A DNA stretch of 64,000 nucleotides, from the NCBI GenBank assembly GCA_020072785.1, contig JAIQGG010000001.1:124001-188000 (forward strand). The letters are read 5' to 3'. Shown here one piece after another: positions 37,140-49,869 of the stretch (positions within the stretch are counted from its first letter, which is position 1; each line of letters starts with the position of its first letter). The notes under the pieces are model-generated. The model was not told the DNA's origin. It ran no database searches and saw nothing but the letters and a program-made list of their open reading frames with translations. Made by a program: the position numbers and the translations under genes. This DNA comes from Terriglobia bacterium. Its GTDB lineage: Bacteria; Acidobacteriota; Terriglobia; Acidiferrales; UBA7541.

Positions 37140-37502
37140 ATGAGTTCCGTGCCCTATCCCGCGCGGCGCCGCTGTGCACGGGTCTTTCACCGCATGCGCT
37201 TGCAGGCCAGCGGGCGGGGCCACGACGGGCGCAAGTTCCGCGAAACATGCGAGACGCTGGTGGTGGACGCCAACGGCGGACTGCTCTGCCTGCACCACGA
37301 AGTGGATGAGGGTGAATTGCTGATTCTCGGCAACCCGCTCACGCAGGAAGAGCAGGAGTGCCGCGTGGTGTTCCTGGGGGAAAGCGGGGAAAAGGGCCAG
37401 CGCATCGGGGTGGAGTTTCTCTCCCCGGCGCCGCATTTCTGGGGCCTGGAATTCGGGACCCAAGGGTTGCCGGGGGCCGGCGAATCATCCCACGGTCATT
37501 GA
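37140..37502 (+). CDS. PilZ-like domain protein
   Basis: 120 residues. An Arg-rich start (YPARRRCARVFHRMRLQASG) precedes a beta-barrel segment with RETCETLVVDANGGLLCL, EEQECRVVFLGE and RIGVEFLSPAPHFWGLEF. This matches single-domain PilZ-like proteins common in Acidobacteria. PilZ domains bind c-di-GMP through RxxxR and DxSxxG; the second motif is degenerate here (DANGGL), so binding is uncertain. GGAAG lies 7 bases before ATG 37140; an in-frame TTG six codons earlier is less likely. Confidence 0.7.
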   Translation: MSSVPYPARRRCARVFHRMRLQASGRGHDGRKFRETCETLVVDANGGLLCLHHEVDEGELLILGNPLTQEEQECRVVFLGESGEKGQRIGVEFLSPAPHFWGLEFGTQGLPGAGESSHGH

Positions 37503-37508
37503 CAGGTG

Positions 37509-37525
37509 TGACCGCGAAGCGGTCA
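37509..37525. repeat. TGACCGC palindrome
   Basis: TGACCGC, GAA, GCGGTCA; the flanks (GTG before, ACG after) match the copy at 15681. Located just after the PilZ-like gene. Confidence 0.8.
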
Positions 37526-37582
37526 ACGAAACAGTGCGCTGCCTACTGCGCCGCGGGTCATCGGTGAGCCGCAAGACTCCCA

Positions 37583-38688: not shown

Positions 38689-39333
38689 TCACGGCGAAAC
38701 AGGACCGTGAGCCAGGGCGCGCCGGCGCCGCGCTGACCATTCCGCTAAACGCCATAGCAGCAAGATTCCGACAACCAGGCCATAGGCCAGGGGCCGGAGC
38801 ACGGCCGACTTCACCAGCCAGTAATAATGAATGACTCCGGCGGTCGCGCTGAGGTAGATGGCGCGGTGCAGGAGCTGCCAGCGTCGCCCGCCGAGGCGGC
38901 GGATCCAGCCGGCAGTCGAGGTGACGGCCAAGGGTATCAGCAGCAGATAGGCGGTGAAGCCCACGGTGATGAAGCGGCGTTTGGCCACGTCTTTGCCCAT
39001 CTCTGCGAGATCGAAGAATTTGTCGAGGCCGATATAGGTGGAGAAGTGCAGACAGGCGTAAAAAAAGGCGAAAAGGCCGAACATGCGGCGCAGGCGGATC
39101 AGCTCGGGTAGACGCAATGCCTGGCGCAGGGGCGTGATGGCCAGGGTGAGGAGGAGAAAGCGCAGCGTCCAGTCCCCGGTGGCGTGGGTGATGAACTCGA
39201 TGGGATTGGCGGTGAGACCGTGGTGCAGGCTGCGCCATACGAGGTCTGCCAGTGGCAGCAGGCCCGCGAAGAAGACGATGGTTTTGGCCCAGTTTCCGGC
39301 CAGGAAAGCGCGCACGCGGAGGCCCCAGCTCAA
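38689..39333 (-). CDS. msrQ: Heme-binding membrane subunit MsrQ
   Basis: 214 residues with about six membrane helices (TIVFFAGLLPLADLVW, LRFLLLTLAITPLRQ, MFGLFAFFYACLHFSTYIG, RRWQLLHRAIYLSATAGVIHY). The conserved His residues bind heme b. MsrQ passes electrons from the quinone pool or a flavin reductase to MsrP, which repairs oxidised Met in the periplasm. The start is a TTG at 39333 that overlaps the msrP stop as TTGA, so it is coupled to msrP. Slightly long C-terminal Arg/Ala tail. Confidence 0.9.
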   Translation of the reverse strand: MSWGLRVRAFLAGNWAKTIVFFAGLLPLADLVWRSLHHGLTANPIEFITHATGDWTLRFLLLTLAITPLRQALRLPELIRLRRMFGLFAFFYACLHFSTYIGLDKFFDLAEMGKDVAKRRFITVGFTAYLLLIPLAVTSTAGWIRRLGGRRWQLLHRAIYLSATAGVIHYYWLVKSAVLRPLAYGLVVGILLLWRLAEWSARRRRALAHGPVSP

Positions 39334-40292
39334 AAATATTTCCGGAGATCCATGCCGGAGTAGAGGCTGGCAACCTGGTCGGCATAGCCGTTGAAGGGCA
39401 GGGTGGCGCGCTTGAAGAAATCCCCCAGACGGCGCTCCTTGGCCTGGCTCCAGCGCGGGTGGTCCACGGCGGGATTGACGTTGGAGTAGAAGCCGTACTC
39501 ACGGGGATTGGCGAGGTTCCAGCTGGTGGGAGGCTGGCTCGAGGTGAAGCGGATTTTCACCAGCGACTTGATGCTCTTGAAGCCGTATTTCCAGGGAAGA
39601 ACCAGGCGCACCGGCGCGCCGTCCTGATTGGGCAGCGTTTCCCCGTACATGCCGAGGCAGAGCAGCGCCAGGGGATGCATCGCCTCGTCGAGGCGCAAAC
39701 CTTCGACGTAAGGAAATTCCAGCCCCGCATATTTGGCCTGCGGCATCTGCGCGGGGTCGTAGAAGCTCTGGAAGGCGACGAAGCGTGCCTTGGGCGTGGG
39801 CTCGACGAGTTTGGCGAGAGCCTGAAAGGAGTAGCCGATCCAGGGCACGACAATCGACCAGGCCTCCACGCAGCGGTGCCGGTAGATGCGCTCTTCCAGG
39901 GGCGCCAGCTTCAGGAGTTCTTCCAGGGAGAACTTGCGCGGCTTGTAGACCTCGCCCTCGACGGAAACGAGCCACGGCGAGGTGCGAAAGTTTTGCGCGT
40001 TCTTTGCGGGATCGGTTTTGTCGATGCCGAATTCATAGAAGTTATTGTAGTGGGTCACGTCGTTGTAGGGAGTGGGTGGCTCGTTGGTGCGGAACGCGCC
40101 CGGGATGACGCCGCTGAGCTTGGTGGTGGCCGCGGCCGCGCGCGCCGGGGCAAACAGCTCCAACAGGCCTTTGCCGGCCAGCGCCGCGGCGCCCGCCAGG
40201 CCCACCCCGCGGAGGAACGTTCGCCGCTCCTGGTAGACGGATTTCGGCGTCACATCGGCGCTTGTCAACTCCGGTTTCCGTCGCACCAGCAT
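39330..40292 (-). CDS. msrP: Periplasmic methionine sulfoxide reductase MsrP
   Basis: 320 residues, the family length. The N terminus carries a Tat signal (RRTFLRGVGLAGAAALAG) with the twin Arg. The molybdopterin-binding domain has the Mo-ligand Cys in YRHRCVEAWSIVVPW and the family blocks LVEPTPKARFVAFQS, GLRLDEAMHPLA, APVRLVLPWKYGFKS and PNPR-like NLANPREYGFYS. It reduces Met sulfoxide in periplasmic proteins. GGAGGG lies 6-8 bases before ATG 40292. It is the first gene of the msrPQ operon. Confidence 0.95.
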   Translation of the reverse strand: MLVRRKPELTSADVTPKSVYQERRTFLRGVGLAGAAALAGKGLLELFAPARAAAATTKLSGVIPGAFRTNEPPTPYNDVTHYNNFYEFGIDKTDPAKNAQNFRTSPWLVSVEGEVYKPRKFSLEELLKLAPLEERIYRHRCVEAWSIVVPWIGYSFQALAKLVEPTPKARFVAFQSFYDPAQMPQAKYAGLEFPYVEGLRLDEAMHPLALLCLGMYGETLPNQDGAPVRLVLPWKYGFKSIKSLVKIRFTSSQPPTSWNLANPREYGFYSNVNPAVDHPRWSQAKERRLGDFFKRATLPFNGYADQVASLYSGMDLRKYF

Positions 40293-40435
40293 TCCTGCCC
40301 TCCGGCGGCCATGAGCACGGCTTGCTCCGCATGGTCCGCGTCTATCTTGTCATTAGACGCAGAATTTGGCCCGGGGATTCGCGATCTGCACCTTACAACA
40401 GTGTGCCTCGGAGAGGCTTCGGGCTACAATAGGCG

Positions 40436-40511
40436 GCAGAGGAGTGGGTGAGCGGTTAAAACCGGTGGTCTTGAAAAATGAAACCGGTGGCAGTCGTGCC
40501 TCCTTCCGCCA
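40436..40511 (+). pseudogene. Decayed tRNA-Ser copy
   Basis: The 5' half of a tRNA-Ser is preserved: GAGGAGTGGGTGAGCGGTT is identical to the intact gene at 47727, and the next 20 bases to the anticodon loop CTTGAAAA differ at two positions. The variable and T arms are then lost, but a CCTCC-TTCCGCCA ending like the tRNA 3' end remains. It cannot fold as a tRNA. It marks the left edge of the 40.5-47.7 kb segment. Confidence 0.8.
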
Positions 40512-40939
40512 ATCATCGGCGAAGCACTGCAGACCGCCCTTCGGTTAACAGCCGGAAGTCTCAAAACTCTAAGTGTCTTTTTTGGGTATCGCTTACAAGA
40601 AAATTGGAGCTATTTTCCCCTCTTTGGTTGCACCCACACCTACACATCTGTACTAAAAATGAAGCCCTGATTGTCCAAATTAGTGTGGTGCACTATAGAT
40701 GTCTTGAAAGCAGATGATTCTGGTTAAGCTAGTCCGTATTTGCGTTAAAACCCTCAACTTAGCGAAATTTCACACAGCAAACATTTTCCCCGAATCTTGG
40801 GAGTGAGCAGGCGGTGGATCGTCCAGCCTTTGCGACTACTTGAAAATTAAGGATTTAGATCCGAACGATGGCGCAGCCCGAGGTATGGTGGTCCAACTGC
40901 ATTACGGAATCCACAGAAGATACCCAGAATGGCCTAAAA
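40512..40939. other. AT-richer spacer between tRNA-Ser remnant and Rrf2 gene
   Basis: About 430 bases, clearly AT-richer than the flanks, with no supported gene. It holds the candidate operon promoter at 40671-40699. The composition suggests acquired or decayed DNA. Confidence 0.5.
40671..40699 (+). promoter_or_regulatory. Candidate promoter of the electron-transfer operon
   Basis: TTGTCC, 17-base spacer, TATAGA. It would give a leader of about 230 bases before the Rrf2 gene. Confidence 0.45.
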
Positions 40940-41416
40940 ATGTCCCTGCAAGTTCTCTCAAGGTCAGTGGGGCACGCGATAAAGATACTGATCTATCTTG
41001 CCATCTCGGCCGGACACCCGGTCCCGGCTTCCCATGTGGCGGAGTGCGCTCAAATCCCCTGCTCCCAGGCTGCCAAAATTCTGCACTATCTGACTTTGCG
41101 GGGGTTAGTGCGCTCGCGCCGCGGTTCGAGCGGAGGCTATCTGCTTCGGGAAGGTGCGGAGCAGGCTACCGTCGAGCAGGTGATGCAGCTTTTCACGCCG
41201 CCAGTCCCTGATGAGGAAGACTATCAACCCTCCGGCCCTCTCCGGGAGATGTGGCTGGAGACCACCCGGCTCTACCAGCAGGCCTGGGGACAACTCACCA
41301 TCGCAGAACTTGCAAAACGCACCGTCAACGGGAGCGAATGCCCGCTCGAAGCGAGCGGGGGTGAATCGGAACCGGCTTCGGCAGCCTCTGCTGTAAGCAA
41401 GAGAGAATCACGGTGA
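40940..41416 (+). CDS. Rrf2-family transcription regulator
   Basis: 158 residues. The winged helix is typical of Rrf2: SVGHAIKILIYLAISAG, VAECAQIPCSQAAKILHYLTLRGLVRSRRGSSGGYLL. IscR/NsrR-type members hold an Fe-S cluster on three Cys after the wing; that triad is absent here, and the only Cys are in the recognition region (ECAQIPC) and one near the C terminus. It may sense redox in another way or need a partner. The start at 40940 removes a 24-residue extension; the Shine-Dalgarno is weak. It is the first gene of the operon and probably controls it. Confidence 0.8.
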   Translation: MSLQVLSRSVGHAIKILIYLAISAGHPVPASHVAECAQIPCSQAAKILHYLTLRGLVRSRRGSSGGYLLREGAEQATVEQVMQLFTPPVPDEEDYQPSGPLREMWLETTRLYQQAWGQLTIAELAKRTVNGSECPLEASGGESEPASAASAVSKRESR

Positions 41417-41550
41417 AAAAGCCTCTCCCAGCAGTCGCTCTTGTGGCCCTCCGATTGGCCGCGGAGTGCGCCGGCAGGCAGCACCGGAACGGGCGCGCAA
41501 ATCTGACGGACGAAAAAACGGAGACAATCCTGAAGTATGTGACGCACTGA
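41413..41550 (+). CDS. 45-residue ORF coupled to the Rrf2 gene
   Basis: Starts at a GTG that overlaps the Rrf2 stop as GTGA, and ends 27 bases before the cupredoxin gene. The product begins MKKPLPAVALVALRLAAECAG, signal-peptide-like with one Cys, and ends LTDEKTETILKYVTH, which resembles the last helix of a class I cytochrome c. There is no CxxCH. It could be a cytochrome gene with its middle deleted, or a small peptide in its own right. The tight packing favours translation, but the evidence is thin. Confidence 0.35.
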   Translation: MKKPLPAVALVALRLAAECAGRQHRNGRANLTDEKTETILKYVTH

Positions 41551-41577
41551 AGAAATTCTTTTTGCGGAGGTGATTCA

Positions 41578-41994
41578 ATGCATTTCTCCAGATATTTCAT
41601 GGCGGGCAGCGTGGTGCTCGGCGGGCTGTTGCTGCTCGGACAAGTCCCGCGAGTGGCTCGAGGCGGGCCGAAGGTCATCAACGTGATTGCGGATAAGGAC
41701 AACCGTTTCAAGATCCCCGGACAGACCAAGCCCGTCATCACCGTGAAGGCCGGCGAGGTCATTCGCTTGCGCATCACGGCGCACAAGGCCGGCGAGTGGG
41801 ACAAGGACGGAACCGTCCATAGCTTCACGATCAAAGAACTGAAAGATCAGGGCTGGGACCTGCGGCTGAAAGAGGGCGTGCAGGAATTTACCCTGGTGGC
41901 GCCGAGTGACCCCGGGGAGTATCTGATCGAGTGCACGGTGAAATGCGGCGACGGGCACGATGACATGAGAATGAGCTTGGTCGTCACCCAGTGA
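41578..41994 (+). CDS. Exported CuA-type cupredoxin
   Basis: 138 residues: an N-terminal hydrophobic anchor or signal (MAGSVVLGGLLLLGQVP) and one cupredoxin domain. The copper residues follow the CuA pattern of cytochrome oxidase subunit II and N2O reductase: His81 in GTVHSFTI, then CTVKCGDGHDDM with Cys119, Cys123, His127 and Met130 (C-x3-C-x3-H-x2-M). CuA is a two-copper electron-transfer centre. GGAGG lies 7-8 bases before the ATG. No oxidase subunit I is nearby, so it probably serves as a separate electron carrier for the genes downstream. Confidence 0.85.
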   Translation: MHFSRYFMAGSVVLGGLLLLGQVPRVARGGPKVINVIADKDNRFKIPGQTKPVITVKAGEVIRLRITAHKAGEWDKDGTVHSFTIKELKDQGWDLRLKEGVQEFTLVAPSDPGEYLIECTVKCGDGHDDMRMSLVVTQ

Positions 41995-42003
41995 GGACAT
42001 CCC

Positions 42004-42822
42004 ATGACGCTGCCTCGTAGAAGCTTCTTCCAATTCCTGGCCCGCGGAACCGGGGCCATCGTCGCTTCGTGGGTGGCCATGAAGGGAATCTCAGCCACGA
42101 TGTTCCGCGAAGTGCTTCCGGCGCGTTCCCTTGCTCCCACCAATCAAAAGTGGGTGATGGTGATTGATCTGGCGAAGTGCGATGGCTGCCGGGATTGCAC
42201 CCGCGCCTGCAGCACCATGCACTTTGTTCCGCCCATGCAGGAATGGGTCAAGGTTTTCGAAGTGCTCGACAACCCGGCGGCGGGCCGCTATTTCCTGCCG
42301 CGCCCCTGCATGCAGTGCGATAACCCACCCTGCGTGCGCGGCTGTCCTGTGGGTGCGACGTTCAAGCGCACCGACGGCATCGTGATGATGGATCAGGAGC
42401 GCTGCATCGGCTGCCGCAACTGCATCGCGCAATGCCCGTACTCCGCGCGCTCGTTCAATTGGGGAGAACCGCAGCACACCCCGGCGGAGCTCTCCATGCC
42501 GTACTCGATGGAGTACAACTACCCGCACCGCAAGGGCGTCGTCGAGAAATGCATCTTCTGCCCCCACATGCTCCGCGCGGGCAAGCTGCCCGCCTGTGCG
42601 CAAGGGTGCAAGATGGGCGCCATCTATTTCGGGGATGAACTGGAAGACGCGGTCACGAATAGCAAGGGCGAAACGATTCAATTCACAAAAATTGCCAAGC
42701 GCGGTGCGGCCTTCCGCCTGCTGGAAGAACTGGGAACGGAGCCGCGCGTCTACTACCTTCCTCCGGCCAGCCGGAAGTATCCGACGCCGGATGAAAAGAA
42801 GGCACTGGAGATGCATTCGTGA
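42004..42822 (+). CDS. Four-cluster ferredoxin subunit (NrfC/DmsB/ActB-like), Tat-exported
   Basis: 272 residues. RRSFFQFLARGTGAIVASW near the start is a Tat signal, so the protein is folded before export. Sixteen Cys are arranged as four [4Fe-4S] sites: C59/C62/C65/C69, C102/C105/C110/C114, C134/C137/C140/C144 and C183/C186/C198/C202. This is the electron-wire subunit found with NrfD-type membrane proteins. It lies 9 bases after the cupredoxin gene and its stop overlaps the nrfD-like GTG, which implies a fixed complex. No molybdopterin catalytic subunit is encoded in the operon. Confidence 0.9.
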   Translation: MTLPRRSFFQFLARGTGAIVASWVAMKGISATMFREVLPARSLAPTNQKWVMVIDLAKCDGCRDCTRACSTMHFVPPMQEWVKVFEVLDNPAAGRYFLPRPCMQCDNPPCVRGCPVGATFKRTDGIVMMDQERCIGCRNCIAQCPYSARSFNWGEPQHTPAELSMPYSMEYNYPHRKGVVEKCIFCPHMLRAGKLPACAQGCKMGAIYFGDELEDAVTNSKGETIQFTKIAKRGAAFRLLEELGTEPRVYYLPPASRKYPTPDEKKALEMHS

Positions 42823-44861
42823 TTTCCAAACGAGAAGCGCACTTACTCAGCACCCTCACGGAAACCTCCGGGCGATTTTATCGGTTGATTGCCCTGCTAC
42901 TGGCCGTCGTGCTGTGGGGGCTCTATGCCTACGTGCATCAGCTCCGCCACGGCCTGGTCGTAACCGGAATGCGCGATGAAGTCTCCTGGGGCTTGTACAT
43001 CACCAACTTTGTCTTCTTTATCGGCATCAGTCATGCCGGCACCCTGATTTCCGCCATCCTGCGCGTCACGCATACGGAATGGCGGCGCCCCATTACCCGG
43101 CTGGCCGAAGCCATCACCGTGTTTGCGCTGTGCATCGGAGGACCGATGGTGATCATCGACCTCGGGCGCCCGGAGCGCATGCTCAACCTCTTCCGCTACG
43201 GCCGCATCCAATCGCCGATTCTCTGGGACGTGCTTTCGGTGTCCACCTACCTGACCGGCTGCATTCTCTACCTGTACATCCCGATGATTCCGGATTTCGC
43301 ATTGCTGGCCGAGCAGTCGAGTCTGGGGGCGTGGCGGCGGCGCTTCTACAAAAAACTTTCCCTGGGCTGGACAGGCAGCAGCACACAGTGGGCACTGCTG
43401 GAACGTGCCATTTCGGTGATGGCTGTGGTCATCATTCCGCTGGCCATTTCCGTGCACACGGTCGTCTCCTGGATTTTTGCGATGACCCTGCGCCCCGGCT
43501 GGAATAGCAGTATCTTCGGCCCCTACTTTGTCGTGGGCGCCATCTACTCCGGAGCGGCGGCGGTGATTTTCTCGATGTACGTGCTGCGGCGCGTGCTCCG
43601 CTTACAGGATTATCTGGAACCCGTACACTTCCGCAATCTGGGGCTGCTCCTGCTCTCCTTCGCCATGCTTTACCTTTACTTCAACATCAACGAATACCTG
43701 ACCATGGGCTACAAGTTCGAAGGAATCGAGAAGGAGTATCTCACGCGGCTCTTCTTCGGAGATTACGCGCCGATGTTCTGGACCGTGCAGGCCGTCGGTG
43801 TGTTCATCCCAGCGCTGCTGTTAATGGCCGTGTTGGGGCTGGGCCGCCATCAGTCCTTCACCATCCCCGGCGTCGCGCTGGCTTCGTTTTTGGCCATTGT
43901 GGGCGCCTGGGCCAAGCGCTATCTCATCGTGGTTCCCACGCTCTCGAGCCCCTTCCTTCCCGGGCAAAGGATTCCCTGGGAATGGACGCACTATCGGCCC
44001 ACCTGGGTGGAATGGTCCGTCACCGCGGCGGCCGTGGCCGTGTTTCTGCTGATCTATGCGCTGTTCTCCAAGCTGTTCCCGATGGTCTCTATATGGGAGA
44101 CGCGCGAGCCGGAAGTAGCCCCAGTGGAAACGGAAGCTGCTGCGCCCGCCCCTCGCGGCTGGGGCGCGATTTCCTCGATCCCGATCGTCCTGATCACGCT
44201 GACTCTCGCAGGCGCCAGCCTGGCCCACGCTGGCGAGACCCGAAAGCCCCGGAAACCTGCGCCGACCGCGCTCTCCTTGGAATGGCAAGCTCTCCCTGCG
44301 GACAAACTTGCAGCGACCTCGCCGGAGGAAGCGCCGCCGGACGCCATTACCGCAGGACGGGTGCAGCACAGCCTTTCGCAACTCTTTGGACAACTGCACT
44401 TCGGTTCCAAGAGTGGGGAAGAGCAGAAGCCGTCCTCCGCAATCGCCCTGAAGGCCACGTTGAAGGATGCGAGGGGAGCTCCTGTTGCCATGCAGGCGGT
44501 GAGCTTTTCCTTGCGCACCTCCTTTGGACTTGTCCAGTACGGGAGCCGGCCAACTAATGAAGAAGGAAAAGCGGAATTAGTTGTTCGCGACCAGCGCTAC
44601 GGCAGGTACCCGGTGCTGGTCGCCTATGGCGGCGATGAGGCCTTCGGCGGCACCCGCGCCGAGATCCTGGTGGATTTTGGCTCGCGTCCGACTCCTGCGC
44701 TGCCCACAGCGGGCGTTCTTATCGCCCCGTACGCCACGGCCGCCATCGGCCTGCCCTTTGTAATTTTTTACGGGATCATGTGGGTTGTGTATTTGTACGC
44801 CTTTGGCTACTTAATCCTCTGGCGCATGCGCCGTTCGGGGCAGGAGAAACATCCCCACTGA
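42819..44861 (+). CDS. NrfD/PsrC-type membrane subunit fused to an exported domain
   Basis: 680 residues. Residues 1-425 form an NrfD-family protein with about ten membrane helices; MRDEVSWGLYITNFVFFIGI, HAGTLISAILR and MVIIDLGRPERM resemble the ActC/HmeB-like group that handles quinol. After a Pro/Ala/Glu linker, residues 450-471 look like a signal peptide (VLITLTLAGASLAHAGE). Then comes a soluble Ig-like domain (ALKATLKDARGAPVAMQAVSF to TRAEILVDFG, about 540-620) and a last membrane helix (635-668). This looks like an NrfD gene fused to the next exported protein. GTG start overlapping the previous stop (GTGA). Confidence 0.88.
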   Translation: MISKREAHLLSTLTETSGRFYRLIALLLAVVLWGLYAYVHQLRHGLVVTGMRDEVSWGLYITNFVFFIGISHAGTLISAILRVTHTEWRRPITRLAEAITVFALCIGGPMVIIDLGRPERMLNLFRYGRIQSPILWDVLSVSTYLTGCILYLYIPMIPDFALLAEQSSLGAWRRRFYKKLSLGWTGSSTQWALLERAISVMAVVIIPLAISVHTVVSWIFAMTLRPGWNSSIFGPYFVVGAIYSGAAAVIFSMYVLRRVLRLQDYLEPVHFRNLGLLLLSFAMLYLYFNINEYLTMGYKFEGIEKEYLTRLFFGDYAPMFWTVQAVGVFIPALLLMAVLGLGRHQSFTIPGVALASFLAIVGAWAKRYLIVVPTLSSPFLPGQRIPWEWTHYRPTWVEWSVTAAAVAVFLLIYALFSKLFPMVSIWETREPEVAPVETEAAAPAPRGWGAISSIPIVLITLTLAGASLAHAGETRKPRKPAPTALSLEWQALPADKLAATSPEEAPPDAITAGRVQHSLSQLFGQLHFGSKSGEEQKPSSAIALKATLKDARGAPVAMQAVSFSLRTSFGLVQYGSRPTNEEGKAELVVRDQRYGRYPVLVAYGGDEAFGGTRAEILVDFGSRPTPALPTAGVLIAPYATAAIGLPFVIFYGIMWVVYLYAFGYLILWRMRRSGQEKHPH

Positions 44862-44975
44862 CCGCTGGGTGTCTGCCGGGCGGCGATTCAGACGCGCGCC
44901 GGAACCAACCGCTTTTTGCATGCGCTAAGCCAGGGAGAAAGCACAGTCCTTGCAATTGCGTAAGGCAGGTGACGG

Positions 44976-47084
44976 ATGAGAGGAAACAGGTTACAGAGTG
45001 CGTGCAAAGTGCAGCGGACCTCTGCGCTTTCCCAGTTCAATTCCTGGCTGACCTTCCGCCGCCTCTCCTCGTGCCTCTCCGTGCCCGTGTTGTGTGCGGC
45101 GCTGCTGCTGGCAGCCGGAGCAGGATTCGGGCAGGGGAACCCTGCTGCGGCAGGGGCGGACCAGCACCCCAACGCCGGCCAAGTTTGGACGCCGCAGTTG
45201 AACGCGGCGGATCGCTGCGCAACGTGTCATCCGCAACTCCCCCCGCCCAACACCACGCAACTCTCCCTCCAGCAGCCCAACCGCGTGGATCCGCTCGTCC
45301 CCCATCACACGAAGGACTGGGGCTGCACCGTGTGTCACCGCGGCCAGGGCGCCGCTGCAGAAAAAGAGCAGGCCCATCAGCCCGAGCTCGCCCCGGCGCA
45401 ACCCCTCCTTCCGACCAGCTACATCCAGGCTTCCTGCGGCATCTGCCATCGCGCGGATCTCCCGGATACTCCTCAATTGAACCGCGGTCGCCTGCTGCTC
45501 AGTGAATTCGGTTGCCTGGGGTGCCACCGTCTGGAGGGTATCGAGCGCCCCGCCATGCTCGGTCCGGACCTGACCGACATCGGAAGCAAAGTCAGCGCCG
45601 AGTGGATCTACAAGTGGCTGAAAGAGCCGCGCACGATCATCGACGATGCGGGCAACGCCATAGTGAGCGGCTACCAAATGGAGCCGCGCATGCCTCAGTT
45701 CCGCCTGAACGAGGAGGAACTCCGGGACCTCTCCGCGTACTTGAGTTCCCTCCGCAGCAAGCCGCTGGAACCCTATAAGTTCGATCCCCAAGTGGTGGCG
45801 GCCTTGGAAAACAGTCCGGATCTGGTGGATCAAGGAGAAGCTCGCTTCCGCCAGATGTTTTGTACCACGTGCCATTCCCTGGCCGTGACCCGGGGCGGCG
45901 AGACCAAGCTCATTGGCGGAGACATCGGACCCGAAATGACCAAGGTCGGCAGCAAGGTGAATCCAGACTGGCTGGTGGCCTGGCTCCGCAATCCGCAGGC
46001 CTTCCTCCCGAAGAGCAAGATGCCGCGCTACGAGTGGTCGGATCAGGACCTCTATGTGGTCACTCGTTTTATCAGCACAAAACTGACGGACCCGGACCTG
46101 CTGCAGGGAATTCCGAAACTGGGGGCGCCTACCCCGGAACAGATTCGTTTCGGCCGTCGCCAGTTCCTGAAGAAAGGATGCGGGAGCTGCCACGCGGTTT
46201 CGGGCATGAAGCTGCAGGAAGATTTTGGGCCGAACCTTGCCAGCCTGGGCGCGGAGAGTATTTCCCACCTGCATTTTGGCAATGCCAAGATTCCTCGGAG
46301 CCTGGTCGCCTATCTCCAGGCGAAAATCAGCGACCCTATCTCCGTGAATCCCACCGCGGAAATGCCGCAGTATCGTTTCAACTCCGCGGACCTGGATGCG
46401 ATGACGACGGCGCTGCTGAGCATGACGGGCGCTCCCTCCAGCGGCGCGATGGAGCGCCTGATCGTGCCGCGCACGCAAGCGGAGTTTCACCCCACCGGCG
46501 CATTCGCGCAGGTCTACGAGCGATACAAATGTTATGTCTGCCACCAATTCAACGGTTACGGCGGGACGCTCGCGACGGACCTCTCTTACGAAGGCAGCCG
46601 CGCGCAGCGCCAGTGGCTGATTGACTTTCTAAAGAACCCGCAGACCCTGCGTCCCAGTCTCATACTGCGCATGCCGCAGTTCAACATGACCGACCAGGAA
46701 GCTTCCATCCTGGCTGACTCCATCGGCCGGGATCTCCGGAGTCCCGCGGTAAATCCCGCCAGCGTGGAACCCGCGCAGTTCACGCCCCAGATGGCGGCGC
46801 TGGGCAAGCAGCTTTACGAGGTGAAGTATCAGTGCCAGGCCTGCCACTCCATCGGGGCGGGCGGCGGATACGTCGGACCCGACTTGAGCAACGTGGGGAA
46901 CTGGATGACGGCGGCCTGGATCGAAGCGTGGCTGAAGGACCCGCAGGCGCTGCTGCCCGGAGGCATCGAGCCGCGCCGCGCTCTGGCCGAAGACGAGGTC
47001 AAGGCGCTCACTGCGTATCTGATGACTTTGCGGCAGAGCGAGCCAGCGGGGCGCGCGGCTGCGGCAGCAGGAGTGGGGCAATGA
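44976..47084 (+). CDS. Eight-heme c-type cytochrome made of repeated domains
   Basis: 702 residues, signal peptide near residues 35-53. Eight CxxCH heme sites: residues 81-85, 117-121, 154-158, 180-184, 296-300, 402-406, 519-523 and 620-624. The first three are close together; the other five each head a class I-like unit of 100-120 residues, four of which end in an axial-Met motif (MPQF 239, MPRY 349, MPQY 463, MPQF 566). The last unit lacks that Met. It is unlike octaheme nitrite or tetrathionate reductases, whose sites are denser. The stop overlaps the next ATG (ATGA). Confidence 0.88.
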   Translation: MRGNRLQSACKVQRTSALSQFNSWLTFRRLSSCLSVPVLCAALLLAAGAGFGQGNPAAAGADQHPNAGQVWTPQLNAADRCATCHPQLPPPNTTQLSLQQPNRVDPLVPHHTKDWGCTVCHRGQGAAAEKEQAHQPELAPAQPLLPTSYIQASCGICHRADLPDTPQLNRGRLLLSEFGCLGCHRLEGIERPAMLGPDLTDIGSKVSAEWIYKWLKEPRTIIDDAGNAIVSGYQMEPRMPQFRLNEEELRDLSAYLSSLRSKPLEPYKFDPQVVAALENSPDLVDQGEARFRQMFCTTCHSLAVTRGGETKLIGGDIGPEMTKVGSKVNPDWLVAWLRNPQAFLPKSKMPRYEWSDQDLYVVTRFISTKLTDPDLLQGIPKLGAPTPEQIRFGRRQFLKKGCGSCHAVSGMKLQEDFGPNLASLGAESISHLHFGNAKIPRSLVAYLQAKISDPISVNPTAEMPQYRFNSADLDAMTTALLSMTGAPSSGAMERLIVPRTQAEFHPTGAFAQVYERYKCYVCHQFNGYGGTLATDLSYEGSRAQRQWLIDFLKNPQTLRPSLILRMPQFNMTDQEASILADSIGRDLRSPAVNPASVEPAQFTPQMAALGKQLYEVKYQCQACHSIGAGGGYVGPDLSNVGNWMTAAWIEAWLKDPQALLPGGIEPRRALAEDEVKALTAYLMTLRQSEPAGRAAAAAGVGQ

Positions 47085-47560
47085 GGAAGCACTTTGCGTT
47101 TGTCGCGCTGGCGCTCTACCTGGCCATGAACTTTTCAGCTTACCGCGGGGGCGCTACGGTACAAGCTGAACCGCGGCAAAAAGCGTATGCGATGGAGCCC
47201 GACTGGAACGACCCGCAACGCTTGATCCCGCTGAATTATCAGCAGGCGCGCGGCAAACGCCTGTTCTATCAATATTGCGTCTGGTGCCATGCGGATTCGA
47301 CTCCAGCTGGACCCTCCAACCGCTCGAACCTGAACCCGGTCCCGCCGTTGCTGAATGACGGGGCCGCCTTGAACGGAAAGAGCAACGAATTCCTGCTCGA
47401 CATCACCACACTGGGGGGCAGCGCGATGGGGAAATCGGCGATGATGCCTCCTTATGGACGGACGTTGACCCGCGAGGAAATTCAGGCGTTGATCGCCTAT
47501 GCTCGTGCTATTGCACAGCCGCTCTATCAGCCTCCGGCCCCTCGAGAACCCGAACACTGA
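47081..47560 (+). CDS. Monoheme cytochrome c
   Basis: 159 residues with a signal peptide or anchor (FAFVALALYLAMNFSAY), one heme site CVWCH (66-70) and a likely axial Met near 122 in MMPPYGRTLTREE. It resembles the ActE-like monoheme subunits of alternative complex III and other small class I cytochromes. It is the last gene of the operon, coupled by ATGA to the eight-heme gene, and could pass electrons to the CuA protein or a terminal oxidase elsewhere. It ends 166 bases before tRNA-Ser. Confidence 0.85.
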   Translation: MRKHFAFVALALYLAMNFSAYRGGATVQAEPRQKAYAMEPDWNDPQRLIPLNYQQARGKRLFYQYCVWCHADSTPAGPSNRSNLNPVPPLLNDGAALNGKSNEFLLDITTLGGSAMGKSAMMPPYGRTLTREEIQALIAYARAIAQPLYQPPAPREPEH

Positions 47561-47726
47561 GGCAGATGAACAGCGAGCGCGCTATTCTTATCATCGAACC
47601 GGTCCGGTCACTTCCAGCTCGGCACACCATGCAATCCAGCTACACCCCTGCACCAAAATGCAGCAGTTCGAATCCAAAGTGCAGCAAATTGGCCGCTAAC
47701 TCGAAGAATACGCTAGAATTAAAAAC

Positions 47727-47816
47727 GGAGGAGTGGGTGAGCGGTTGAAACCGGCGGTCTTGAAAACCGTTAGACCCGAAAGGGTCTCGGGGGTTCGAAT
47801 CCCTCCTCCTCCGCCA
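47727..47816 (+). tRNA. tRNA-Ser (anticodon UGA)
   Basis: All arms are visible. The acceptor GGAGGAG pairs with CTCCTCC, the anticodon loop is CTTGAAA with anticodon TGA, the long variable arm is GACCCGAAAGGGTC as in serine tRNAs, and the T loop is TTCGAAT. Discriminator G and an encoded CCA end the gene. The 5' half is duplicated at 40436. Confidence 0.96.
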
Positions 47817-48063
47817 GAATGCACAGAGAGATCCCTCGAGGCACCCGCCTGTGGCGGGCTCTCTGGGGATTCCGGCAGCGGGCGCCCGCGGCACTCCTGC
47901 CCGCTACATGCCGCAAATCCGCATCGCGCGTCCGCCGCCCGGCGATTGCAGCGATTCGCAAAGGCCGCGTATACCTTTTTCGTTTATCCTTAGGCCATAG
48001 CGCGAGAACAGTTTTCTTGGATTTCCCCGCAGACGAATAGAATAGGGCACAAGGTCATTCTTG
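47817..48063. other. Spacer between tRNA-Ser and histidine kinase
   Basis: About 250 bases with no supported gene or clear site. Confidence 0.3.
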
Positions 48064-49869
48064 ATGGCTTCGGCCCGCTCATACGGCTGGTTGATCGGCG
48101 CCTGGGTTGTGGTCCTGGGGGGGTACACCGCTGCCTTCCTGACGATCAAGCCCGGGTATTCGCTGACGGCGTTCGGGGATCTGACGCAGTGCGTTCTTCC
48201 GCTGCTGGTGAATGGCTGCCTGCTGCTCAACGCCGGGACGTCGCAGTGGCGGCGCAATATTTTCTGGATGTTGCTGGCGCTGAGCTGCACGCTGTGGATG
48301 TTCGGGCAGTTTCAATGGGCGTATTTCGAAGTCTATCTGCGGGAGCCGCTCCCGGACCTTTTCCCTGGCGACATCATCTTCTTCCTGCGCGGGGTACCGC
48401 TGATGGCAGCGCTGGCCCTGCAGCCGCACTGGCGGCGCGCGGAGCCGCAGTGGCGCTACGGATATCTTGATTTCGGGCTGCTGCTGGCCTGGTGGGTGTT
48501 TCTCTACGGGTTTGTCGTGCTTCCCTGGATGTATGCCGCGCCCTTGATCGGACAGTACAACTTCAACTACAACCTGCTGGCGAACATTCAGAATCTGTTG
48601 ATTGGGGGCGGCCTCGGGTATCTCTGGCTGCGCACGCGCGGTTCCTGGCGGAAGATCTATGCGCATCTCTTCGCGGGCACCACGCTGTACATGCTGGCTT
48701 CCCTGGTGATCAACGTGGCCATCGACGAACACAAGTACCACACCGGCAGCTTCTATGATCTGCCGCTGCTCGCCTCCTTTCTGTGGCTGGGAACGGCGGG
48801 CCTGGTGGGCTACCGCCACCGCGCCGAACTCGAAGCGCCCGGGGGGGAAGGCGATGCAGACAGGAACAGCGAACTGCATCGCCGCGAAAATGTGGTGATA
48901 TCGCGCCTGGCGATTGCTACCGTGCTTTCGCTGCCGCTGTTTGCCATCTGGGCTCTGCGTTTCAGCGAAGATCCCGGTCCGGTAATTGATTTTCGCCTGA
49001 TGGAGGTGCTGCTGGCTTCTATGCCTCTCGGGGTTCTCGTTTTTTTCCGGCAACACCTGAGCGAGGCCGATCGCTCTCGCCTTCTGTCCGCATCCCAAAA
49101 TTCCGTCGCGGATCTGCAGCGGATGCAGGCGCATCTGGTGCAGTCGGAGAAGCTGGCCTCGCTGGGCCAGCTGGCCGCGGGCGCTGCGCACGAAATCAAC
49201 AATCCGCTTACCGCCATCCTGGGTTTTTCCGACCTGCTTGCCGAGGACACCACGCTGCCCGAAAAGCCGCGCCTGATTGCGGGCAAGATCCGTGAACAGG
49301 CGCGGCGCACCAAGACGCTGGTGGCCAATCTGCAGAGCTTCGCACGGCAGGTGCCCAGCGAGCGCGTGCTCCTGGACATCAACACCATCATCAGCAATGC
49401 CGTGCAATTGCGCGCGCTGGACTTATCCGCCTCCACACGCATCGACCTGCAGCTCGAACCCGTCCTCCCCGGCGTGCGCGGCGACGGCAATCAACTGCTA
49501 CAGATTTTCTTCAACATCCTGAGCAATGCCTTGGATGCCATGGAGGCCGCCGGGGGCGTCCTGACCATCAAGAGCATGCGCGAGCGCGGCAACGTCGTGG
49601 TGCTCTTCTCCGATACCGGCCCCGGGATGCGGGAGCCGAATCGCGTTTTCGATCCCTTCTACACCACCAAGCCCGTGGGCAAAGGCACCGGGCTGGGCCT
49701 GAGTATCTGCTACGGATTCGTGCAGGAGCACGGCGGCACGATCACCTGCGCCAACCGCCGGGAGGGAGGCGCGGTCTTCCGCGTCGAACTGCCCGCGGTC
49801 CTGGCCTCTTTCCCCGTGCGCGATCACAACACGCCGGTACCGCTCCCGCTGGTGCCAAAGAAGTCCTGA
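48064..49869 (+). CDS. Membrane-bound sensor histidine kinase
   Basis: 601 residues. The first 310 or so hold about ten hydrophobic segments with few loops, an integral sensor rather than a periplasmic one. After a linker, the HisKA helix has the phospho-acceptor His376 in AAGAAHEINNPLTAILGF, and the HATPase domain has NILSNALDAME, FSDTGPGM and GKGTGLGLSICYGFVQEHGG. No receiver domain or response regulator gene is adjacent, so it is an orphan. A TTG-ATG pair stands at the start; I chose ATG 48064. The signal is unknown; position beside the electron-transfer operon is suggestive only. Confidence 0.88.
   Translation: MASARSYGWLIGAWVVVLGGYTAAFLTIKPGYSLTAFGDLTQCVLPLLVNGCLLLNAGTSQWRRNIFWMLLALSCTLWMFGQFQWAYFEVYLREPLPDLFPGDIIFFLRGVPLMAALALQPHWRRAEPQWRYGYLDFGLLLAWWVFLYGFVVLPWMYAAPLIGQYNFNYNLLANIQNLLIGGGLGYLWLRTRGSWRKIYAHLFAGTTLYMLASLVINVAIDEHKYHTGSFYDLPLLASFLWLGTAGLVGYRHRAELEAPGGEGDADRNSELHRRENVVISRLAIATVLSLPLFAIWALRFSEDPGPVIDFRLMEVLLASMPLGVLVFFRQHLSEADRSRLLSASQNSVADLQRMQAHLVQSEKLASLGQLAAGAAHEINNPLTAILGFSDLLAEDTTLPEKPRLIAGKIREQARRTKTLVANLQSFARQVPSERVLLDINTIISNAVQLRALDLSASTRIDLQLEPVLPGVRGDGNQLLQIFFNILSNALDAMEAAGGVLTIKSMRERGNVVVLFSDTGPGMREPNRVFDPFYTTKPVGKGTGLGLSICYGFVQEHGGTITCANRREGGAVFRVELPAVLASFPVRDHNTPVPLPLVPKKS

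Follow-up and report, generated by a model that had tools for sequence, protein, structure and literature searches.

An operon for electron-transfer proteins lies between the decayed 5′ half of a tRNA-Ser gene and an intact tRNA-Ser gene in a soil acidobacterium, which raises the question of what this combination of proteins does and how it came to occupy such a site. The DNA analysed (hereafter the window, 64 kb) corresponds to positions 124001-188000 of contig C1 of a 3.7-Mb acidobacterial genome (G000); two MAGs labelled Terriglobia, SRVP_26 (G007) and SRVP_33 (G009), are among its congeners. An earlier note on the window, written from the sequence, had proposed that the operon arrived as a unit at a tRNA gene and moves electrons from quinol to periplasmic carriers. 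The reading that we consider probable is that of a cassette acquired once and since relocated, anchored at tRNA genes and devoid of integrase, which would encode a compact oxidoreductase resembling alternative complex III, connecting quinol to periplasmic carriers and having interchangeable outputs. The features of the locus, in window coordinates, are the following.

39330-40292, minus strand: MsrP catalytic subunit, the left flanking gene, outside the module (NCBIfam NF003767, 462.7 bits, above cut-off)
40436-40477, plus strand: decayed 5′ half of tRNA-Ser(UGA), read as the left attachment scar (similarity to tRNA-Ser)
40528-40645, no strand assigned: AT-rich element end with a tRNA-Asn core (40537-40554) and arm-like TGCACCCA sites (similarity to congeners)
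40689-47629, plus strand: whole unit, its extent set by homology with G007
40868-41416, plus strand: Rrf2-family regulator, canonical start probably at 40940 (Pfam Rrf2, 59.3 bits, passes cut-off)
41413-41550, plus strand: 45-aa ORF, conserved in G007
41578-41994, plus strand: exported cupredoxin with a complete CuA motif (ligand motif, profile matches)
42004-42822, plus strand: periplasmic ferredoxin with four [4Fe-4S] clusters and a twin-arginine signal, DsrO/NrfC/ActB2-like (16 cysteines, profiles)
42819-44861, plus strand: ActC-like NrfD membrane subunit fused to a helix-Ig-helix tail (Pfam NrfD, 134.8 bits)
44976-47084, plus strand: octaheme c-type cytochrome, paralog of those in Rieske/cytochrome b operons (eight CXXCH)
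47081-47560, plus strand: monoheme c-type cytochrome (one CXXCH)
47639-47726, plus strand: arm-like flank 5′ of the intact tRNA, read as the right element end (TGCACC and TGCAGCA repeats)
47727-47816, plus strand: intact tRNA-Ser(UGA) (ARAGORN; Rfam tRNA, 57.3 bits)
48061-49869, plus strand: histidine kinase, the right flanking gene, kept beside the same tRNA in several congeners

Every reading frame of the seven-gene operon named in the earlier note is present, and both members of the tRNA-Ser pair were recovered with ARAGORN and a similarity search. Consecutive genes overlap or almost abut, the one exception being a 114-nt gap 5′ of the octaheme gene. In a blastn comparison of G000 with G007, the alignment is restricted to 40689-47629 (91%) and the flanks are unrelated on both sides; by this comparison, the operon forms a sharply bounded unit whose ends lie a short way inward of the two tRNA copies.

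The cupredoxin displays the ligand pattern H81...C119-x3-C123-x3-H127-x2-M130, a predicted copper site in which H81, C119, C123 and H127 are invariant across 14 homologs, and its profile matches the CuA domains of COX2 and N2O reductase. Exactly 16 cysteines are present in the ferredoxin, which also carries the export motif RR(S/G)F, predicted to be a twin-arginine signal. Its nearest NCBIfam name is DsrO, not ActB, with a score of 188.1 bits that falls under the equivalog cut-off of 200 and leaves it outside DsrO; against the PDB it matches NrfC/PsrB (4e-33) and subunit B of alternative complex III (1.8e-18). Plasmids were considered as carriers and set aside: the plasmid-borne relatives of the ferredoxin are all below 60% identity, and the matches listed are ordinary DsrO/NrfC types.

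The NrfD part matches the profile of ActC (PDB 6f0k_C) with an E-value of 1e-93, and an AlphaFold model of the fusion protein (pLDDT 73; an earlier model built from 7 sequences, with pLDDT 49, was discarded) superposes on ActC in Foldseek with a TM-score of 0.82-0.85. By profile and by model, its closest solved relatives are the ActC subunits of alternative complex III. The C-terminal tail consists of a helix, a beta-sandwich matching an Ig-like domain, and a second helix. In the Clostridiales PH28_bin88 (L161:7484-9526), NrfD and the Ig-TM part are two adjoining genes, so both parts plausibly work together. Relatives of about 50% identity that have no Ig tail occur mostly at loci with an 800-aa subunit, located upstream in several cases (L036-L046), and tetra- or pentaheme cytochromes. 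Three NrfD-Ig genes, 53-57% identical to the window protein and without ferredoxin genes between them, stand in tandem at L035:2-6647 (G047:C14).

Alternative complex III (ActABCDEF; PDB 6F0K, 6BTM, 6LOD, 8K9E) thus offers one point of comparison: the operon shares its ActC-fold NrfD and its ActB2-like ferredoxin, as well as the proposed transfer of electrons from quinol to cytochrome c. In contrast to that complex, no ORF or domain for the molybdopterin-like ActB1 occurs in 40868-47560, and the operon includes no pentaheme ActA, second NrfD (ActF) or ActD; it adds a CuA cupredoxin, the Ig-like NrfD tail, and an octaheme and a monoheme cytochrome of another family.

The relatives of these two cytochromes are found in the Rieske/cytochrome b operons of Terriglobia. 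The module octaheme is 58-66% identical to the octahemes of such operons across the class, and the monoheme shows the same range of identity (58-66%) to the gene located 3′ of the octaheme, the gene order being kept. Related pairs sit in the Rieske/cytochrome b operons of G009, G017 and others, and G000 itself encodes a second octaheme of this type. Because it forms a separate long branch in the octaheme tree, sister to all sampled bc-type octahemes, the module octaheme is, on this phylogenetic evidence, an old paralog and no recent copy of the host's own bc operon gene. An Rrf2 gene accompanies both kinds of operon, that of the unit being 51% identical to the Rrf2 beside the Rieske/cytochrome b operon of G009, whereas CuA, ferredoxin and NrfD-Ig replace the Rieske protein and cytochrome b, both absent here. 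Judged by these homologies, the operon is made of parts from two different respiratory complexes.

The earlier note had stated that the combination matches no nameable complex. This holds for the literature searched (with limited coverage of subscription journals), in which no complex of NrfD with a cupredoxin was matched; the parts, on the other hand, are less singular, since the core recurs elsewhere, NrfD is of the ActC type and the cytochromes have paralogs in bc operons. NrfCD-type modules without a catalytic molybdopterin subunit (NetBCD, NrfBCD, DsrOP and the QrcCD sub-module) likewise connect NrfD and a four-cluster ferredoxin with c-type cytochromes, and NetBCD is the nearest named functional analogue. 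Their cytochromes differ, however, and CuA or an Ig fusion is described in none that we found in the literature.

Pairs of an ActC-like NrfD and a four-cluster ferredoxin work on quinone from the periplasmic side, in the oxidising or the reducing direction, and high potentials are usual for CuA and for class-I cytochrome domains. These domains, along with the derivation of the cytochromes from a bc-type output, point to oxidation of quinol towards high-potential carriers, and the operon's products probably take electrons from quinols in the membrane and hand them to copper and heme proteins; the quinol-to-periplasm flow of the earlier note is retained as the best functional reading of the sequence. 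If the subunits assemble as one complex, the ActC-like NrfD subunit would oxidise menaquinol on its periplasmic side; electrons would travel through the exported ferredoxin, with its four iron-sulfur clusters, to the CuA cupredoxin and the octaheme cytochrome, from which they would proceed to the monoheme carrier and on to a terminal acceptor, e.g. a cytochrome oxidase. The core would then stand in for Rieske/cytochrome b upstream of the bc-type cytochromes in the window clade. The usually high potentials and the bc-type affiliation of the octaheme and monoheme make it rather improbable that electrons travel in reverse, from periplasmic cytochromes (supplied, e.g., from Fe(II) or other donors) to quinone, as in QrcABCD. 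This direction has a precedent in the related QrcCD pair, which reduces menaquinone with cytochrome electrons (PMC13059093), and the MtrA/MtrB-type partners seen in relatives could serve oxidation or reduction.

A search for the same gene order across Acidobacteriota located the CuA-FeS-NrfD-Ig core at about 15 loci, with a patchy distribution and differing partners. NrfD-Ig is encoded by 11 of 349 genomes, belonging to 6 of the 122 genera of the class, and a second scan added further MAGs; in the complete loci read, the order of CuA, ferredoxin and NrfD-Ig is constant. At L210 and L275, the core is directly downstream of decaheme DmsE/MtrA-type and MtrB/PioB genes (the MtrB/PioB gene being recognised with 377.9 bits at L210 and by homology at L275). 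The partners are a decaheme cytochrome and an unnamed protein of 918-1036 aa at L273, L276, L277 and L279, tetraheme/diheme cytochromes with a two-component system at L148, L149, L151 and L274, a short monoheme protein at some loci, and the bc-type octaheme and monoheme in the window clade. The best reading of this gene order is that the core is a reusable quinol-side module, which different acidobacteria may have wired to different outputs. The unnamed protein (L276:13047-15803, L273:13172-16282, L277:11207-14125, L279:3700-6507) is always encoded between the decaheme and CuA genes, and the two members scanned have no Pfam or NCBIfam match. A comparison with MtrB did not identify it as a porin (hhalign probability 2.7%), though its C-terminus is aromatic (RYAF), like those of outer-membrane barrels.

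A survey of MtrCAB systems (PMC8805035) reported a gene for an inner-membrane quinone oxidoreductase near the conduit in almost all groups, but none in the acidobacterial group. The core could fill this gap: two other acidobacterial genomes encode it immediately 3′ of MtrA/MtrB-type genes, which makes it a concrete candidate for the missing inner-membrane partner. The window differs from MtrCAB/PioAB clusters in that it encodes neither MtrA nor MtrB, i.e. no decaheme with an MtrB porin; by joining the core to cytochromes of the bc-type operon, it would instead exemplify respiratory complexes built from exchangeable halves. We put forward only tentatively a broader proposal, in which the core is an undescribed, reusable CuA-FeS-ActC-Ig quinol dehydrogenase that acts as the inner-membrane partner of MtrAB, can be swapped onto bc-type cytochromes, and has spread and relocated as integrase-less tRNA cassettes.

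Turning to the site itself, the tRNA-Ser(TGA) at 47727-47816 is the sole tRNA called by ARAGORN in the window, and an Rfam scan of the window returned this tRNA plus weak sub-threshold matches only. The copy of its 5′ half extends over 39 nt (40439-40477) with 95% identity to tRNA-Ser positions 2-40 and an E-value of 1e-12, so chance is excluded. On the operon side of this copy, 40537-40554 is an exact 18-nt match to the anticodon arm of tRNA-Asn, within a segment (40528-40645) that is 74-82% identical to element ends in G007, G027, G035 and G018 and whose counterpart adjoins a tRNA-Asn 3′ half in G027 and G018. This scar, with its tRNA-Asn-type core, belongs to a different family from the tRNA-Ser-type element ends of the congeners. 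At the other end, the 88 bp located 5′ of the intact tRNA are 94% conserved with G007:C108 and are also found 5′ of displaced tRNA-Ser halves at G000:C6 and G007:C52.

Displaced tRNA-Ser 5′ halves occur away from the intact gene in G000 (C6), G007, G003, G006, G013, G022, G034 and G009; when aligned, they break at the anticodon loop and continue into element ends, which group into families that carry recurring arm-like motifs, TGTGCAACA or GGTGACA among them. In G018 and G016, additional tRNA-Ser 3′ halves follow downstream of the intact gene at a spacing of 4.6-5.9 kb. Because these half-gene junctions in congeners run into repeat-rich element ends, the tRNA-Ser gene is, as far as sequence comparison can tell, an integration hot spot in the genus, which strengthens the earlier suggestion that the tRNA pair marks an integration site. 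We read the tRNA halves and element ends as attachment scars, presumably left by a recombinase. The locus thus has the partial tRNA copy at its far end (40436-40477) that is typical of tRNA-integrated islands, and, as already remarked in the earlier note, no integrase: none was found among the operon genes by domain search, the PF00589 matches listed for G000 all lie elsewhere, none near the tRNA-Ser half copies, and none was evident on ORF inspection of the sampled element interiors. At four of the 15 core loci, a tRNA is found no more than 500 bp away (P ~3e-5, in a post hoc test that includes the window locus).

The earlier note had also pointed to AT-rich DNA beside the remnant. Such DNA is present (GC 0.45 at 40513-40680 and 0.51 at 47561-47726) and confined to both intergenic ends, while the operon itself has a GC of 0.61 versus 0.63 for the window and a GC3 slightly lower than that of the flanking genes. 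GC and GC3 thus lend no support to a compositional signature over 40.4-47.8 kb, and composition was rejected as a sign of transfer.

Close relatives do not all share the operon with the same flanks: it is absent from both site and genome in 33 of the 36 genomes of the genus that were searched. The three carriers (G000, G007 and G009) form one clade in the MsrP tree (93/91), and the fourfold-site identity of the operon genes, 0.81-0.89 to G007 and 0.58-0.66 to G009, is about that of the flanking genes. Given a single clade of carriers and operon genes as diverged at synonymous sites as the genes beside them, the operon looks old in this clade and later relocated, not newly imported. The earlier note leaned towards arrival as a genomic island. 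A recent horizontal import of this kind from another phylum could account for the patchy distribution of NrfD-Ig; we regard it as very improbable, and rejected it, as synonymous divergence and clade structure agree with the host, operon GC is near genome GC, and the nearest full-length copies outside the genus are 53-65% identical and nearly all acidobacterial. What stands of the proposed arrival as a unit is the sharp-ended unit, not a recent origin from outside.

The carriers also differ in where the operon sits. In G007, homology to the MsrP-side flank stops at window position 40383 and gives way to other DNA, and the MsrP-side and kinase-side flanks lie on different contigs, both without an adjoining operon. 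The G007 copy is instead found within a region mostly missing from G000, with no tRNA fragment at its ends and the nearest tRNA 6.2 kb off. A tRNA-Lys gene lies about 300 bp from the start of the G009 copy, at a point where G000 and G007 also lose synteny with each other; this copy is split over two contig ends, both within the octaheme gene, so that its right flank is deduced, and on the second contig its other end runs into the Rrf2 gene of a Rieske/cytochrome b operon. The intact Rrf2 of that neighbouring operon lies at the opposite end of the unit from a degenerate Rrf2 and small-ORF region 5′ of the CuA gene (L033:4382-4720). The operon is thus absent from this site in G007, which has the flanks without it; the interval holds other DNA in G007 and other congeners, and no strictly empty site was found among them.

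From these alignments, the three carriers have three different chromosomal addresses, two of them beside tRNA genes, and the simplest history would be one acquisition in their common ancestor followed by relocation. It may be objected that this is an ordinary, vertically inherited operon that never moved as a cassette: insertions and inversions unrelated to it would have rearranged its surroundings, and the tRNA scars would stem from other elements. Such a view accommodates the equal divergence of operon and flanks, the single clade of carriers, the ordinary GC, the G007 copy without an att scar, and a scar at 40528-40645 of tRNA-Asn rather than tRNA-Ser type. We nevertheless find it somewhat unlikely, as it leaves aside that the homology block ends at most ~200 bp from both tRNA copies in G000, that each of the three species has the operon at an unrelated address, in two cases beside a tRNA, and that two further, more distant loci are also near tRNAs. 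On the preferred reading, a cassette acquired once in the ancestor of the three species would have moved afterwards, in two of them to positions beside tRNA genes, presumably through recombinases acting in trans.

Cargo islands anchored at tRNA genes are already known, among them tycheposons, which encode a recombinase, and additive flexible genomic islands with repeated tRNA ends. The elements described here resemble these in their partial tRNA copies, metabolic cargo and tandem cassettes at one tRNA; they differ by having no tyrosine recombinase and by a break at the anticodon region that displaces the 5′ half. The locus suggests that metabolic cargo lacking its own integrase may change position around tRNA genes.

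Further arrangements of this kind were observed. Tandem cassettes with varied cargo, in which no integrase was seen, lie between tRNA-Ser 3′ halves at L125:2830-12541 and L129:4724-10664. In G000:C6:94447-117599 (L117, L229, L230), a tRNA-Pro(TGG) array comprises an intact gene (117523-117599) and two 3′-half copies (at 103377 and at 94447); its first interval contains a tRNA-Ser 5′ half, and this segment has a 92-96% identical counterpart in G007 on the MsrP contig (C52). Lastly, a short repeat of ~25-35 nt at 37493-37543 of the window has many further copies in G000 and G007.
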